Source: Rhodocollybia butyracea (taxonomy: Eukaryota; Basidiomycota; Agaricomycetes; Agaricales; Omphalotaceae). Taken from it: a stretch of 64,000 bases of DNA. Location: the NCBI GenBank assembly GCA_015501585.1, contig JADNRY010000003.1, positions 682,001 to 746,000 on the forward strand, written 5' to 3'. Under the pieces are notes generated by a model, which saw only the letters and a program-made list of their open reading frames with translations, was not told where the DNA came from and searched no databases. Both the position numbers and the translations under genes were made by a program. Positions 55,158 through 64,000 of this stretch are shown piece after piece. Position 1 is the first letter of the stretch; every line of letters begins with the position of its first letter.

Positions 55158-55857
55158 TCAGCAAAGCCCCAAACACCACTTGGGCTTGGGCTTGGGCTTG
55201 GGCTTGGGCTTGGGCTTGGGCTTGTAATTCTCCGGCAGTACATTAGGTTCTGGAGAGTACAATGCTGTAGAAACCGTTCATAAAATAGAACAAAGAACAA
55301 TACAATGACCACTCACGCGGATTTCCTCGCCTATAAATCGCATACTGCCTGTGATCCTTCACAATCACATTCTTGGTAGGTCGTGTCATATCTTCAGCTA
55401 CCGCACGACAAGCAGGTTTACCGGGACAGAGCGAAGGGACACCCCAAAACTGGAACCGAAGCGCCCTCGTCGAAGATGCTGGTACATTCAAAAAATGGAA
55501 TTTAAACCCTCTGAGGTTAACCGGGTTATCCTTCGATTCCTTCGCAGCCGCTTTTATCAGCGTCGTAGCCGCACTATTTACCGCGGCCGGGTCCGTTTTC
55601 TCCTTTCCTTGCCTTTCGTACAAGTAGGATACCCAGACCGTGGGCGGCGGGGTTTTAATGAGTTTATTCGAGGATCCGGCTGATTGTGAAGATGAACCAG
55701 ATGTGGATGATGGCTGGTCAATGTCAATATTGTGAGTCTGAACAGTAGATATGAAACTGAAAGACAGAGAGTGCGGTATTAAGCTCACGGGTGCAGCATG
55801 TATTGTTAGTGTAAACCCTAGAACGAGTACCAGGGTGGCTATGAAGTTGAGGCGCAT
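55158..55857 (-). CDS. Small secreted protein with a Lys-Pro repeat tail
   Basis: MRLNFIATLVLVLGFTLTIH is a clear signal peptide, followed by AAP and a probable cleavage site. The mature part has a Ser-rich spacer, TVWVSYLYERQGKEK, RGFKFHFLNVPASS, LRFQFWGVPSLCPGK and HRQYAIYRRGNP. An intron then leads to QPNVLPENY and eight KP-type units encoded by a CTTGGG hexanucleotide repeat, ending KWCLGLC. I do not recognise a family. A decayed duplicate lies just upstream (56269-56860). Secretion is inferred from the signal peptide; the role is unknown. Confidence 0.65.
55179..55224. repeat. CTTGGG hexanucleotide microsatellite
   Basis: About 7.7 perfect copies of CTTGGG in 46 bp. On the minus strand it encodes the KPKPKP tail of the secreted protein, so copy-number change would alter tail length in steps of two residues without shifting the frame. 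Confidence 0.9.
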
Positions 55858-56268: not shown

Positions 56269-56860
56269 TTAGGCTGGCGGGACCGAACTATCGAAAAGCG
56301 CATCCGATTGTCCTAGATGTGAAGAGTGTACGACGGTCGAATTCAAGACTGTCAATACTGAATCAAACTTCTTCTTGTACAGCTTACACATCAGAAAAAT
56401 ATCTCTAAACACGATCTTGTAATCCTCGGGATGTACGATGCTGTAGAAACCGTCCATGCAACAGAACAAAGAACAATAATGACCACTCACGCAGGCTTCT
56501 TTCTTACAAACCTCTTCATCATATCATTCCATACAACTGCATTCGATGAATCATGATTCGCGTCCTTGGCCGGACGGCGGACAAGCATACTCAGATTTAT
56601 CATGACAGAGCGAAAAGATACCCCAAACTGGAACCGGAGCGCTTTCGTCGTAAATGCTGGTGACTCAGCTGGGGAAACGCGACAATTTTAACGGTACCGG
56701 ATGCTGTTTTGGTCGATCGCGAAACTAGAGTAGAGGTGGATGTCCGCGGCTGGTCAATATTCAATGTTCGTGGTAAGCTTGAAGATATGAAACTGAATGC
56801 GATGAGAAGCTCACCATATGTTGTTAGCGTAACTTTATCCCCCTATAATATAACTATACC
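56269..56860 (-). pseudogene. Decayed duplicate of the secreted-protein gene
   Basis: Blocks match the neighbouring gene: GCTGTAGAAACCGT with AGAACAAAGAACAAT (56430-56490 against 55262-55304), AACTGGAACCG with GCGC (56625-56645), and GGCTGGTCAAT with ATGAAACTGAA near 56740-56800. Between the blocks there are deletions and substitutions, and no continuous reading frame with a signal peptide is left. The Lys-Pro repeat is not present. The duplicate ends just before the left inverted repeat of the helicase element. Confidence 0.65.
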
Positions 56861-56893
56861 TCGTGATGTAAAGTACGATGTACTAGTACTAGT

Positions 56894-56932
56894 AGCCTTG
56901 TAGCAAGGGTTTGATGAACCCTCGTGTTCGAT
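56894..56932. repeat. Left terminal inverted repeat of the helicase element
   Basis: 39 bp starting AGCCTTGTAGCAAGGGTTTG and ending GTGTTCGAT. It matches the inverted copy at 62165-62203 at 37 of 39 positions. It contains a near-palindrome, AAGGGTT-TGATG-AACCCT. Confidence 0.8.
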
Positions 56933-57045
56933 GCCGCGCCTTTGCCGTGTAGTGCCGTGTGGCTGCCGACCTCACGTGGGCTCGTGCACGGTCACTGGCG
57001 CGTATCGCGCGTTGTTTATTTCTTCGTACTTTGTTTATTTATTGA

Positions 57046-59236
57046 ATGCAGAGCAATTTCGACCAAGAGTCATCAGGATTCTCGACGCCGGACAATATAT
57101 CTCGAGTTCGTCAACTAATCCGACCGCGATTCGCTCACGATATACACGACTATGCATTGTATGGAATATGCAAGGCTATGGATGGCTTTCACGTTGTATC
57201 AGTAGTCAAGACTGGCGGAGGAAAGACCACATATTTCGCGGGATTTATGGCCCTTCTGCAGGAGCTGGACAAACTGCCGGACTCTCATGATCTGAAGCGG
57301 TGCTTGAACCGAAGAATTCCACGAAACGCTGTCACCATCATTGTGTTTCCCACTAAAGAATTGGAAGAAGACATGGTACCTATCTTATCTTCATTCTGTG
57401 TCTTTATTTCTCTCAGAAATCCCTAATAGGAAACGGCTTTTAATAAATTAGGTATACCGTCGATCGCTATCAATGAAGATACATTAAAGGCTGCGCGTAC
57501 ACGTCGAATCGATTTATGGGCTCTGGCCGTGCAACCGCACCTCCGATGTATTCTCCTGTCTCCAGAACAGCTCTCATCCAAACCTTTCACCACCGCTCTC
57601 TCCAATCCCATTTTCTATTCACGTATCATTGCTTTGGACATTGATGAAATTCATTTGATTCTCTCATGGGGCGCTCCTGGATTTCGCGTCTCATTTCGAG
57701 ACATCGGGAACGCTCTGATGCGTCTCCCACGATGGACTACACTCACAGGTGTTACGGCCACTCTTCCTGGTGGCACAGATACTCAGAAAATGACACAAAT
57801 TTTGGGTCTGAAGGAAGGGTCTTTCTCTTTCACCCGTCGTTCAAATCACCGTCCTGAACTTCAATTCATTTTTCGTACACTGCGGCATGGTCTACAAGGA
57901 TGGATATTTCCTGATTTTGACTGGATTCTCGCAGGTTGCCGCAAAACCATAATCTATTGCCGTACCATTTCATTAGCTTTCCGGCTGTTTGTTTATCTAT
58001 GGCGGAAGGTATCACCCAATTCTTCCAGCCGCCGTAAACGTTTCCGTCTGTACTGTTCACTCTATCCTAACCTATACAACAAATCCTCTCGAGACATGTT
58101 TGTGAGTGATCCCGACTGTCAAGTAATGATATCAACAGATGCCCTCAAAGTTGGTAACGACTTTCCTAATGTTGACGACGTCGTTGTAGTGGATCCTGAG
58201 GACCCTGCTGATATTGTGCAAAAAGGTGGGCGTGCTGGACGCAAGCCTCCATTCTCAAATCCCGGCCCTCGCTGTGTTTGCTATTTCACACAATCTACAG
58301 TAAAACGGGCAAACACAGTTCTTGCGAATCGAACCGAAGATTCAGATCCAAATCCCGAGACAGTGTCTATGGCGCATCTGATCCTCGCAAAGTGTATCAC
58401 AAAACAACTTGACATTATCTTTGACAACCCCATGGATGACACCCCATGTTCTTGTGAAACATGTTTGTCCTCATTCGCTCTTCCTCCCATATTCACATGC
58501 ACTTGCAGTGGCTGTAAACCCGAGCCTCTTCTCCCTCCTCTTCCACAAGCGGCGCCCTCTTTGGTACGGCCAGGCCGTGGAATTGTTATGGCAGAGCGGC
58601 TTAACCCGCAGATGCGAGAGTATGGTCAAAGGTCACTTGAAGCATTTCGGGATCAAATTTGGTCCATTTCCACCAGTACTCGAATTCAATGGCTTCCCCC
58701 GCTGGCATTACTCACCGATGTTAGCATCGGAAACATACTCGATGAATTTTCACGATTGAAAACAATTGCTGACATCTCTCCTTACGTTAACGGATTTCTT
58801 CGCGGGCATGAACAAGCACTCCTTGATGAAATCCACAACATGCGTAAGAAATTCAATCGAATAAAGATAGGGCTGGATCCCGAACACCAGTATGTATTAA
58901 ACACTTAGTATTTAGGGGATGAATACTAACAATCCTGCGTATAGGCAAAGCACTGCTTATGATGCCTTCTTCTCATCGCTGAGCACTGCCGCAAATCCCC
59001 CTTTACGATCACCATTAAAAGATATGTAAGTTCAATGACTTCACTCTTTTTTTTATGAATTAACCTTCCTTTTTGGCAGTTCGAGGGCATCCGCCTCAAA
59101 TTCACCCACTAAGCCCGCAGGTTCAAAACGGCAAAATTCCAACACTGCACAGTCCACAAATAGCAAGCGTCTCAAATCTAGCACCCCACAAACTAGCACT
59201 GTGCAAACTAAAAAGGTACGCTGTGCACTCGTTTGA
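57046..59236 (+). CDS. RecQ-like superfamily 2 DNA helicase
   Basis: Four exons (57046-57375, 57430-58889, 58945-59025, 59080-59236) join in frame to 675 residues. Helicase motifs: VVKTGGGKTTYF (Walker A), LLSPEQL, ALDIDEIHLILSWG (Walker B, DEIH), TGVTATLP (motif III), KTIIYCRT (IV), MISTDALKVGNDFPNVDDVV (V) and QKGGRAGRKP (VI). They appear complete. The region then has a Cys cluster, CSCETC and CTCSGC, possibly binding zinc, and a Ser/Lys-rich tail. It lacks the RQC and HRDC domains of cellular RecQ and resembles the many RecQ-like helicases dispersed in mushroom genomes. It lies inside a TIR-bounded segment and converges with the DUF6589-like gene, so I infer an element-encoded role. Confidence 0.85.
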
Positions 59237-59240
59237 CTAG

Positions 59241-62026
59241 TCAGTCAACTAACGATATAGTCCAGGTTATATGCTCGTAGAATTCATTTTGAAGCTGCTC
59301 TTGAAATAGGTCACCCGCTTCGTATGTTTGACCATTTGTACTGATGATCCAATTATTCAGAAAGAATTTTAGAAGCTCTGGACCAGATTCGAGTTCGAAG
59401 TTGCAGATCATTTCAAGCAAGTATCCTGTATACTTGGTATGCGAGGAACCGGCAAAGGTAAATGTCATCATCTGAAAGGATTTTTTTCAGTAATGCTTTT
59501 ATTTTTGCTTGAGCCGTACCTTCAAACATTCCCAAAGGCAACCTGCATCTCCATGATGTGTCGCGTTTTTGGCAAGTCGAAACAATAGCCCATCGTAGAT
59601 CAATCGGGTGGATCGTGCAAGTGTCTCGTCTCCAATAAATGGTGTCTTATCGCTCTCACTTTTACCCTTCCCACTCTTCTTTTTAGTCTTTGGCAAAGCA
59701 ACGCCAACATCGGCCGAGCTTGCATCTTTTTTTGGTGCTTGCCATGGGCTTCCTTCTTTGTAACCGCTCCGGCCCAGCATCAATGTACGATATGCATTAA
59801 GTGAGCCAAACTTGCGATGTAAGTATAGTGCTCGCTTGTACAGGTTGTCAAAAGTAGGAAACTGGCCAGTCTTTGACATAGTCTCCAGATCATTAAACAG
59901 ATCTTTGGTCCCAAGATCATTACTGAATAACACGAGTAAGCCCATCTATTTCTATAATCAGAGTATAGCTCTTATACATACCTCCAGATATCCAGCACAC
60001 GAGCCTCAACTTGGCTGTCCAAAATATCTGAATAACGGTAGTAGTCAACCTTGCTCACATTGCCTGGTGCTTTACGCTTGAGGGTATTTGCACCAAAACC
60101 AAGTGAGGATGGATCCGCACTAGTAAGTCCCACCCAATGAGCTTCATAGATACGGCTCAGGTTGGTCCACAGAGTATGCCAAGATTCAAGGAATGGTTCC
60201 AGGATGTCCATCCGTTCGTATTCATTATCCAGAAACTGAAGGTAGTTTTTCAGCTGTACCATTCTCTCGTAACTAAGACCATCTCCGCCTGCAAGAATAA
60301 GGCGTTTTGAGAATGTGGGCAAGTCGGGGACTGTCCCAGTTGAACAATGAAGTCCTGCAGTGCCTTCAGAAGCTCAGACGTCGTGGTTTCGTTATACCCA
60401 TTAGACTTTAAGGGGTAGACCTGGGTTTTTCGAGGTGAGACCCGCATTTTCGTCCCAAATTCCTCATACAGATTGCGGAGCTTGGAGGAATAGGTGCGTA
60501 CTTGTGGAATATCGCCAGCATAGTCGAAGAGTATGTCAAGCCATTGTAATGGCAATGCTTTTGACAGGAACTCGTAGTCCACAAGGTCCCAAAGCTGCTC
60601 AAAAGTCAACTTTTCTCGAAGGTTTTTCTCAAGCCACTCGTGCTTCTTCTCAAGACTAAGCGCATCCTTTGTGAGACCTTCCGCTTTGCAATATGTTCCT
60701 GCACAGCCAATCAACATAGAGGACTCACGACCAAGGCGCTCATGGCGCGCTTTAATCTGCTTTTGCATGTTATCGAATCGGAGCAGCCCAGACGTCTTCG
60801 CTGGAAGCAATTTTAATGACAGCTGCTGCATCAAGTTTGGCGTAGTGATCAAGTGAGTCCAATACAGTACTGTAGGCTGTCGAAGCCCCAATACGAGACT
60901 CATGGTCAAACAAGTAGCGGTTGGCAGCGCATGCAAAGAGTAGTAAGCCTTTATCAGCTGAGAGAAGATTTGCACTTCGATTTCGCGAGAAAAGAATGGA
61001 CGATATAGCATGGGTGGCAACCTGGCACACAAATGTAAACTGATTACTCTTTAAACACAATTATGAACATAAACTTACAATCTCCGGGGGACGGTAATTT
61101 CTTGAAACTGCCTGTGTGTCGAGAGGGGCTTTTTTTGCCCTACTAAGTCGTTGGCGACGTTTCGGAGACGCAACTGAGGTACAGTAGTGCCACAATAATG
61201 GAAACCCATTCTGGAGAAGGTTCTGTGTTGTGGACATGATTGTCTGGTCCTCCGAGTTCTCCATCTCTGAATCTGAGTCATGGGAGGAAGTGTGGGCCTC
61301 AAGACGTGAGGTATGCAAGCCACCTTCCGGTGATACCATTTTATCTGCACTGCTGAGTAGGTGTGCTTCTACCAACTGGGCGGCAAAGGATGTAAGAGCT
61401 GGACGAGCATATTTAATGGTTTCAAAGGGCTCAGCTACTGAAAACATCTTCTGGTGTTCTGCATGCTCCGGGTGTGGGGAGCCAATAGGATTTTGATACC
61501 ATTCTTTAACAATAGATGAAGGCGTATGTGCTCCAGCACCTTCTAAGAATTTTGACAGCATTGCAGAGTGCCTGCGTGATCGCCCTTTAACACTTTGACC
61601 ACTGGAATCCTTTACCCGGAAAAAATAATATAAAAAGACCCCGAATGTCCACTTTTCATCTGCGATTGCTTGTAGGATATTTTCCAGCTTGCGTAGATTC
61701 AGATCAGACACAAGCGTGTCACCACTAAATCCAGAGGCAGAAGCTTGGGAGCGAGGTTTTTGGGAGGACAGCGGTTGGGGAGGAAAATGAAGTGGGAGTG
61801 TCGTTGATGTATTAGATAGATGGGCTGGAACTGGTGTCTGCGGCGGATGATGGCCAGGGACTGGTGTCTGTGGTGGATACGGATAGGGGTACCCGTAAAA
61901 AACGTAGCTTCCAGTTGGTGTGGGTGCGGGTTGGCCAGGGGTAGAAGAAGGTCCAGCTGTGTGTGTAGAATTATTACGAGTCGACGAGTCGTCGTCAGAG
62001 ATTGACATTTCAGTATCTGAACTCAT
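59241..62026 (-). pseudogene. DUF6589-like protein gene, probably frameshifted
   Basis: The start MSSDTEMSISDDDSSTRNN leads into a Pro-rich N-terminus, then EIVATHAISSILFSRNRSAN, FDNMQKQIKARHERLGRESS, ALPLQWLDIL, GGDGLSYERMVQLKNYLQFL, EPFLESWHTLWTNLSRIYEA, DPSSLGFGANTLKRKAPGNV, YDGLLFRLAKNATHHGDAG and MMTFTFAGSSHTKYTGYLLE. From memory these match the DUF6589 family of Agaricomycetes, whose function is unknown. Between QLGQSP and DLPTFSKRL (about 60325-60335) one base is missing and no intron can explain it. A second frame change lies at about 60790-60860, where a 70-nt intron is possible but would remove conserved-looking residues. This copy is therefore probably inactive. Confidence 0.65.
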
Positions 62027-62164
62027 TGTTTCAAAGTAGGTGAACGGAAATGTATTTTCTACTGTATGAGGCAATGATCTTATCAGCTTATCAGCATTGA
62101 TTATTACGATGCTATGATTACTAGGGACCGGCAACAGCACGGCGAGGGATCGGAGTTTGAAAAA

Positions 62165-62203
62165 ATCGAACACAAGGGTTCATCAAACCCTTGCTACTAG
62201 GCT
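62165..62203. repeat. Right terminal inverted repeat of the helicase element
   Basis: Reverse complement of the left repeat with two differences. Further out, at about 62242-62265, CTAGTACTATAGCC-like sequence again resembles the DNA just outside the left repeat, so the true outer end may lie beyond 62203 on this side. Confidence 0.75.
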
Positions 62204-62427
62204 TTATATGAGAACGAGTATTCTCTTCTCAAAAGACTAGCTAGCTAGGCTATAGTACTAGTCAGGCTCTTTTTCCGGTGTCGTTGACAGGCCGGTAACT
62301 TGAAGGTGTAGATCTGGCTTTACTGCCTACATCCAACACTAAACCAGTAGCAGTACTTTGGCCCTAACTCTCGAGGCCTCAGCGCTCAGCGCAGAAAAGC
62401 GTCTATACACTGGAGTTTTCCTAATCG

Positions 62428-64000
62428 ATGTCCTTCTTTGACCACAGTAGTAACATTGTTATTAACGGTTCAAACTTCATCGCTGTAGCTGGTAACCAGT
62501 ATACGACTAGCTCATCCAGCTCCTCTGATGCACAAACGTCGGAAGTTCAGACAAGAGGTAGTCAATCTAGTACGCTTTACGTTTGCTCATTATCAGTGTT
62601 CTCCATACTTATGAGATTCTAGGTGCTCCCACCCAACTACGGGGACAATCGAGGTTGTCAATATGGTGGAATGCGTTTCGGGCAACCGACTTGGCCTCGG
62701 GAATAGCCTGGATGAACCTCTCGAGGTTTCTACCAGGGTTACTACGCTTTCATGTCTCCTCGTCTATAACCGATACCGAAGTTAACTCACTGGACCGCAC
62801 TATGCCAGCCAATCAGACGAACCCAGATGATCTTCCTAGTCAACAAACAGAAGACTGTGAAGAGCTCTCAGTGCCTACTGGGCCTACTGGGCCGACAACA
62901 GTCATCAATGGTGGCACAATTGTGTACCCCAGTCATAGCAAAGGTACGTTGAACGTTCAGAAGAGACTTTGCATTGAACGCCGTAGTAGGAATTGATAGA
63001 CTAGAACAGGCGGCAGCGCTGGAAGCCCTTCATGACTCAATGGATGGCTCCCCCCATCCAAGCTGTCATCCCGAAACGCGTATAGCAATGCTCGAATATC
63101 TGCAGAATTGGTCACTGAGAGCAGACAGCGGGATCTTGTGGTTGAATGGACCGGTGGGGGCGGGAAAGTCTGCCATCATGCGAACACTAGCTCGCAACCT
63201 GCAGAGTGCTCACCAGTTCGGAGGCGGCTTCTTTTTCAAACGGTCCCATCCCACACGCGGCGATGCTAAGGCCTTAATTGTAACCATTGCATGCCAGCTG
63301 GCCGATGTTCCCTGGTTGAAAGGTCCAATTAACCGTGCAGTGGAACACTATCCATCTGTTCTCAAGAGGTCCACTGAGATTCAACTAGAGAAGCTGATCT
63401 TTGAGCCTTGCCGTGCGCACCCCAATTCAACCCCTCTAACGATACTCATTGATGGTCTGGACGAGTGCGAGGGCCGAGAAAGAGTTCATCTGAGGGTAAT
63501 TCTGGATGCAATCGGGAAGTCCTTTACAAAACATTCCCACCCTCTTCGGTTCATCATTGCCAGCAGGCCGGAAGCCTATATTCGTGACATATTCGAATTA
63601 CCGGCCTACTGTGGCATCTACCAGGAATTCCCTGTAGAGCCGGCGCACGAGGATGTACAAAAATACTTTCTCCATGAATTCGCCCGAATCCACGACGAGC
63701 ACCACGAGACTATGGCAACTTTTCCCCGCCCCTGGCCCACGCCCGATGTCCTGGATATACTTGTGGAGAGATCATCCGGCCATTTCATCTACGCATCTAC
63801 CATCATAAAATTCCTCGACGATAAACATTACCACCCGAACAAGCGTCTGAACGTTGATGTTTTGAAGGATCAAACTGGAACGGACTTAGTCTTTGGGGCA
63901 CTTGATCAGCTTTACATTGCCATCCTCTCTGCTGTACCCGGCCCCAGGCAGCCTCAACTAATCCCGACCTTATGTGCTCTCGCAAACTTTGATCTCTCTC
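62428..64000 (+). CDS. NLR-like NACHT NTPase, 3' end outside the window
   Basis: The start MSFFDHSSNIVINGSNFIAV is the same kind of Asn/Gly-rich N-terminus as in the NLR-like gene at 44530-47587. After one intron comes a linker with LPSQQTEDCEEL and TTVINGGTIVYP; after the second intron the NACHT module begins (VGIDRLEQAAALEALHDS). Walker A is GPVGAGKSAI, Walker B LTILIDGLDECEG, then FIIASRPEAYI. The frame is open to the window edge (PTLCALANFDLS). The two NLR-like genes are paralogues in opposite orientation about 15 kb apart. Such proteins are thought to act in fungal non-self recognition and programmed cell death; the C-terminal sensor of this one is not visible. Confidence 0.85.

Follow-up and report, generated by a model that had tools for sequence, protein, structure and literature searches.

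A helicase/DUF6589 transposon of probable AcademH type in Rhodocollybia butyracea, with solo 50-nt end caps and insertions spaced from an E-box motif

RecQ-like helicases and DUF6589 proteins are both dispersed, multicopy families in mushroom genomes, and one stretch of the Rhodocollybia butyracea genome raises the question of what joins them. The window analyzed here is 64,000 nt long (GCA_015501585.1, contig JADNRY010000003.1, positions 682,001 to 746,000), and all coordinates refer to it. Near its right end, a first-pass annotation had placed 39-bp inverted repeats around convergent helicase and DUF6589 genes at 56894..62203. We conclude with considerable confidence that this locus is a DDE cut-and-paste DNA transposon of AcademH type, with DUF6589 as its transposase and the helicase as an accessory. 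Its copies tend to insert at a set spacing from the E-box motif CAYRTG, most often 18 bp, and the outermost 50 nt of its right end occur alone at many other sites.

Element boundaries, copies and empty sites

The inverted repeat is real: its arms are 95% complementary over 39 nt, and the extension score of 33 compares with a maximum of 16 across 200 dinucleotide shuffles. Homology to other copies continues past 62203 and ends at 62252, and the 9-bp sequence TAGTACTAG, read in the flanks, follows directly at 62253-62261 and precedes the left tip. The right 39-bp arm is therefore internal and not the element end. Thus, the repeats of the first-pass annotation and the convergent genes between them (supported by Pfam matches) were confirmed, while its interval fell 1 bp short on the left and 49 bp short on the right. 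The features defining the element are as follows.

56893..62252, no strand: whole element, 5,360 bp, tips TAGCCT...AGGCTA (9-bp target duplication and homology end-points)
56884..56892, + strand: left copy of the 9-bp target duplication TAGTACTAG (flanks read)
62253..62261, + strand: right copy of the 9-bp target duplication TAGTACTAG (flanks read)
56894..56932, + strand: left arm of the 39-bp inverted repeat, at the tip (repeat search)
62165..62203, - strand: right arm of the 39-bp inverted repeat, internal (repeat search; internal by homology end and target duplication)

That the 39-bp repeats should recur at the ends of other copies was a test set beforehand, and they do so together with 9-bp target duplications. 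Perfect duplications flank 12 of the 16 two-ended copies read in the host genome (not L030, L031, L038 or L039), and a seventeenth, L083, matches at 8 of 9 positions. The 16 copies measure between 382 bp and 5,360 bp, and every one except the window copy is internally deleted, the short ones being miniature inverted-repeat transposable element (MITE) derivatives. Empty sites were sought for 12 insertions by joining the flanks with one duplication removed and searching 200 bp. Eight gave an uninterrupted 200-bp match at 99-100% identity (L021, L023, L024, L025, L028, L029, L033 and L036), those of L028, L029 and L036 being many copies of a repeat. L027 gave a partial match at 91-92%, and this search returned no match for the window copy, L022 or L026.

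The helicase/DUF6589 pair recurs

A Pfam scan of eight reading frames in the window identified DEAD (below its cut-off) and Helicase_C on the plus strand and DUF6589 in four minus-strand frames. The two genes converge from proposed starts at 57046 (helicase) and 62026 (DUF6589).

57046..59344, + strand: RecQ-like helicase gene, predicted 696 amino acids plus stop, five exons (Pfam, gene model, homologues, fold of homologue P0002)
57376-57429, 58890-58944, 59026-59079 and 59216-59260, + strand: proposed introns of the helicase gene (gene model)
59241..62026, - strand: DUF6589 gene (putative DDE transposase), frame interrupted twice, 3' end overlapping the 3' end of the helicase gene (Pfam, gene model, homologues)

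The DUF6589 frame requires introns and, as judged by eye, also contains two interruptions that resemble frame changes rather than introns, for which reason the DUF6589 gene of the window copy is probably broken. A DUF6589 protein from the same species (P0049), 98% identical over 66% of the query, is open through both interrupted places.

Whether the two genes are neighbors elsewhere was asked first of the host genome. A PF20231 search gave 68 matches (one below cut-off), merged by hand into 41 DUF6589 loci, and a helicase homologue search gave 55 matches merged into 44 loci. A helicase lies within 5 kb of 14 of the 41 DUF6589 loci, compared to 0.22 expected if the loci were independent. All 14 pairs are on opposite strands, nine convergent and five divergent, and four of the divergent pairs (C656, C720, C401 and C1310) are copies of one family. 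No helicase lies that close to the remaining 27 DUF6589 loci, many of which are fragments and one of which (C875) stops near a contig end. Among other Agaricomycetes, 11 of 35 DUF6589 homologues are on a contig of exactly the same size as that of a helicase homologue, examples being an 8,242-bp contig of Lentinula boryana and a 7,922-bp contig of Moniliophthora perniciosa (names MPER_13229 and MPER_13231). The adjacency proposed by the first-pass annotation is thus a recurring one.

Further families have ends of their own. The divergent-gene sister family represented by C656 has the tips TAGGCT/TAGACT and perfect 9-bp duplications in 9 of 11 copies (C656 and C728 fail), and the C666 family has a 73-bp inverted repeat with a duplication matching at 8 of 9 positions. 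Clear ends were sought for C694, C1283 and C1272, and none were found. The divergent-gene sister family also includes short copies (L127-L141), several of about 915 bp, that have 9-bp duplications and lack the E-box spacing.

DUF6589 as the probable transposase

The first-pass annotation had raised DUF6589 as a possible transposase, to be checked for an RNase H-like or HUH core, and structure prediction favors a transposase: the predicted fold is closest to DDE transposases. The best matches of the model are Hermes (hAT), RAG1 (Transib) and Tn5, and the P transposase is also among the matches. A PDB sequence search with DUF6589 found no similarity to the fold-matched transposases. Putative D, D and E catalytic residues are conserved in 28/28, 30/30 and 28/29 DUF6589 sequences, respectively.

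60772..60774, - strand: codon of putative catalytic D1 (FDN; D/D/E conservation)
60281..60283, - strand: codon of putative catalytic D2 (GGDG; D/D/E conservation)
59412..59414, - strand: codon of putative catalytic E (YLLEM; D/D/E conservation)

Given the match to DDE transposases and the conserved triad, both of them predictions, DUF6589 is very probably the transposase of the element. DUF6589 was not mentioned in the literature searched. The pair could instead be host passenger genes, caught by chance in a MITE-flanked segment moved by another transposase, as the dispersed, multicopy nature of both families might allow. We consider this highly improbable: three families whose ends are delimited carry the pair, which is convergent in some cases and divergent in others and, in other species, has its two members on shared contigs; none of the 14 genomic pairs has both genes on one strand; and DUF6589 itself has the predicted DDE-like fold and triad.

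Place among known elements

In the parts of the published descriptions available to us, AcademH has target duplications of 9 or 10 bp and encodes a helicase, which replaces the nuclease of AcademX (PMC10045372), and it occurs in Basidiomycota (PMC10799480). The window element is likewise a fungal helicase-carrying DNA transposon with 9-bp duplications, in its own family (12/16) and in the sister family (9/11), and with a DDD/E transposase, here predicted from fold and conserved residues. The 9-bp duplications and the helicase therefore indicate AcademH, and by description the element is probably AcademH-like. The first-pass annotation had named AcademH as the nearest comparison; the likeness stands, but it is more than an analogy, AcademH being probably the right family and probably already covering the gene pair itself. 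The assignment of DUF6589, the cap footprint and the E-box spacing were not found in the literature searched, the last two also going unmentioned in the portions of the AcademH descriptions seen.

A superfamily distinct from Academ, alike merely in helicase and duplication size, is an unlikely alternative. In its favor, the AcademH likeness is one of description, 9-bp duplications occur in Mutator-like elements (MULEs) too, and none of 18 XPG_I matches in the genome is on a DUF6589 contig. The nuclease of AcademX is XPG-like, and the lack of an XPG match in the eight window frames and of XPG_I on DUF6589 contigs also agrees with AcademH, where a helicase takes the place of that nuclease. Against a separate superfamily stand the 9 or 10 bp duplications and helicase of AcademH and its occurrence in Basidiomycota, as described in the parts of those accounts seen (PMC10045372; PMC10799480). 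Four of the XPG_I matches (C451, C489, C639 and C884) are fragments of equal score and extent, none beside DUF6589, and possibly belong to another transposon family.

Several other element types were considered and rejected. The target duplication of Kolobok is TTAA. KolobokH, as described in the excerpt consulted, is a fungal DNA transposon of the Kolobok group in which a RecQ helicase lies downstream of the transposase domain (PMC9587614). The helicase of the window element is, in contrast, a separate gene on the opposite strand, and KolobokH was rejected on the duplications, which here are 9 bp and of varied sequence. P elements have 8-bp duplications and a THAP domain and lack a helicase; they were rejected on duplication size. 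The duplications of hAT elements are also 8 bp. A MULE was rejected on the Pfam results for three DUF6589 proteins, none of which has a MULE transposase domain at E up to 10: P0050 and P0060 match DUF6589 only, and P0059 has two weak unrelated matches. Helitrons have a Rep/HUH domain and make no target duplication, and were rejected on the 9-bp duplications, the RecQ-like helicase and the lack of a Rep match in the frames scanned.

Solo copies of the right-end cap

The element extends beyond its right repeat arm by a terminal segment, referred to here as the cap.

62203..62252, - strand: 50-nt right-end cap, predicted to fold with the repeat arm next to it (z -4.66; one compensatory change) and present alone at 28 further sites (solo copies)

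Together with the adjacent arm, the cap is predicted to fold with a z-score of -4.66 (0/200 shuffles as low), compared to +0.74 and -0.06 for internal controls. The left end of the window copy reaches just -1.31. In the C656 family the left end scored -9.0 and the right end -4.94 (C401 copy), and in the C666 family the values were -2.54 and -2.03. Across 12 distinct right ends, 99.3% of cells stay paired, and at one base pair both partners differ (A-T to T-A); this is a single event and thus weak proof of the fold.

The genome contains 70 matches to the right-tip pattern and none to its reversed control; the left-tip pattern, with one mismatch allowed, has 23. For 22 of the 23 left tips, a right tip lies on the same contig about 5.4 kb or less away. 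We read the 43 right tips that had neither a left tip nor inner homology; the remaining 27 of the 70, some of them unread, were assigned to longer copies and left out. These 43 fall into 29 distinct flanks: a longer end (L084) and 28 solo caps. A perfect second copy of the 9-bp duplication is present at 15 of the 28, including L125, and a near-identical partner of L125 (L092) has one mismatch in it. The cap is complete at 14 sites, among them L085, which has an additional base inside, and L094, which has an additional G. At nine it ends short, in some cases with filler (L125) or a join at shared letters (L089 and L117; by eye), and at five it has diverged inside. The commonest inner junction is the start of the 39-bp repeat, blurred over 37-51 nt, as expected for end joining following excision. 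Solo caps look like the excision footprints of a long, asymmetric staggered cut. The nearest precedent is the P element, with its unusually long staggered cleavage of 17 nt (PMC7776569); in the part of that account seen the stagger is at each end, whereas the cut of about 50 nt considered here is at one end and deduced from solo caps.

Identical solo caps would also result if both strands were cut at the internal right repeat, so that the cap is lost and the excised molecule cannot reinsert, productive moves using the outer tip on both strands. None of the right-end matches among the 40 candidates scored (out of 155) ends at the internal repeat, and for that reason capless elements seemingly do not reinsert, as such dead-end excision would have it. 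This scheme, however, requires two cleavage modes, and its 28 dead-end sites would outnumber the 22 left tips with a nearby right tip; we consider it less likely than the staggered cut, though the strongest of the alternatives. A further possibility is that the cap is a micro-MITE, moving independently and also forming the end of the larger element. The perfect duplications at 15 sites, the complete cap at 14 of 28 and an E-box spacing of solo caps the same as that of the larger copies fit this idea. The inner junction, however, varies in position, filler and shared-letter joins, unlike an end defined by a transposase; its commonest position is the repeat start, and no second terminus is visible. 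A micro-MITE is accordingly judged quite unlikely.

At L113/L115, two caps stand in tandem with part of the target duplication between them, as though an element had arrived and departed there twice. Seven loci (L087, L095, L098, L102, L105, L112 and L120) share a flank and a diverged solo cap, which was apparently amplified within another repeat.

Insertions are spaced from an E-box motif

Target choice was analyzed for the 27 insertions with perfect duplications (12 larger copies and 15 solo caps), using a band 15-19 bp outside the duplication. CAYRTG falls in this band, on either side, at 18 of the 27. One motif lies at 15 bp, one at 16, four at 17 and 13 at 18 bp (L110 has two); outside the peak there are four at less than 15 bp and none beyond 18 bp in the stretch examined. 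Relative to a window background of 0.54%, the binomial P is about 7e-35, a value that overstates the case because motif and band were picked from the same flanks; the sharp peak at a single distance is the better argument. L029 and L036 are inserted in opposite orientations into the same repeat sequence; their duplications are shifted by 1 bp relative to each other, and each copy lies 17-18 bp from the same CATGTG/CACATG. They are two independent insertions into one target, and because they share it the independent count is 17/26 (P about 8e-33).

Six of the 13 remaining solo-cap sites have CAYRTG 48-77 nt inward from the tip, which is where a motif 18 bp past the duplication would fall when lost bases are allowed for, and another of the 13 (L113) has it 17 bp away on the other side. 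Nine of the 27 insertions lack CAYRTG in the band; in four of these, the window copy among them, a motif with one mismatch stands at 16-18 bp (background 7.2%). In the sister family, found in the same genome and also making 9-bp duplications, CAYRTG is in the band at 0 of 10 sites, and the E-box spacing is therefore specific to the family of the window element. CACGTG is a basic helix-loop-helix (bHLH) site. Within the element, TCACGTGG is also present 81-92 nt inside the left end of larger copies, with the exception of L022, L024, L036 and L038.

56860..56865, - strand: CACGAG, differing from CACGTG at one position and lying exactly 18 bp outside the left target duplication (one-mismatch scan)
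56973..56978, + strand: CACGTG within the left end of the element, at 81 nt from the tip, absent from some MITE copies (motif scan)

Sequences flanking the element

Just left of the element, 55257-55483 and 56433-56661 are about 70% identical and form a small tandem duplication. To its right, sequences about 70-76% identical to 62891-63195 are found repeatedly on C605 and also on other contigs, indicating a dispersed or tandem family.

A model for transposition and its implications

In the mechanism we propose, the DUF6589 transposase would bind the 39-bp repeats, cut through its D/D/E RNase H-like core and join the ends 9 bp apart, with the helicase as an accessory that would open the element ends. 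At the right end, the transferred strand would be cut at the outer tip and the other strand about 50 nt inside, at the repeat start. The cap would then be carried on one strand and remain at the donor, where end joining would seal it in place, flanked by both 9-bp duplications; unwinding of this hairpin-forming segment may be a task of the helicase. The E-box may be read by a bHLH protein of the host or by the transposase itself through a DNA-binding domain.

The combined proposal is a one-ended stagger of about 50 nt, a single-stranded hairpin cap handled by the helicase and copied back as a 50-bp donor scar, and integration guided 18 bp from CACGTG/CATGTG, implying bHLH tethering or an E-box-reading domain. 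It is advanced tentatively, at a little under even weight. Several caveats apply: the solo-cap search required an intact outer 27-28 nt, empty sites were sought for 10 solo caps and none were found, solo ends of the cap type were not seen in the sister family, and CAYRTG was noticed by eye in the flanks in which it was then counted, with the band set afterwards. We know of no transposon combining a one-ended long stagger, a hairpin-cap scar and E-box-spaced integration.

For mushroom genomes, DUF6589, a dispersed family annotated as unknown, gains a likely function as a DDE transposase, and its neighborhood with RecQ-like helicases is explained by a shared element. These elements are a natural record of landing sites and of the remnants left behind, and they make two questions testable: what a helicase does in a cut-and-paste transposon (opening a 50-nt hairpin end?), and how a eukaryotic transposon chooses its site, here 18 bp from an E-box. 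If the E-box targeting does act via a host bHLH protein, it would be a case of transcription-factor-guided integration and a possible tool.

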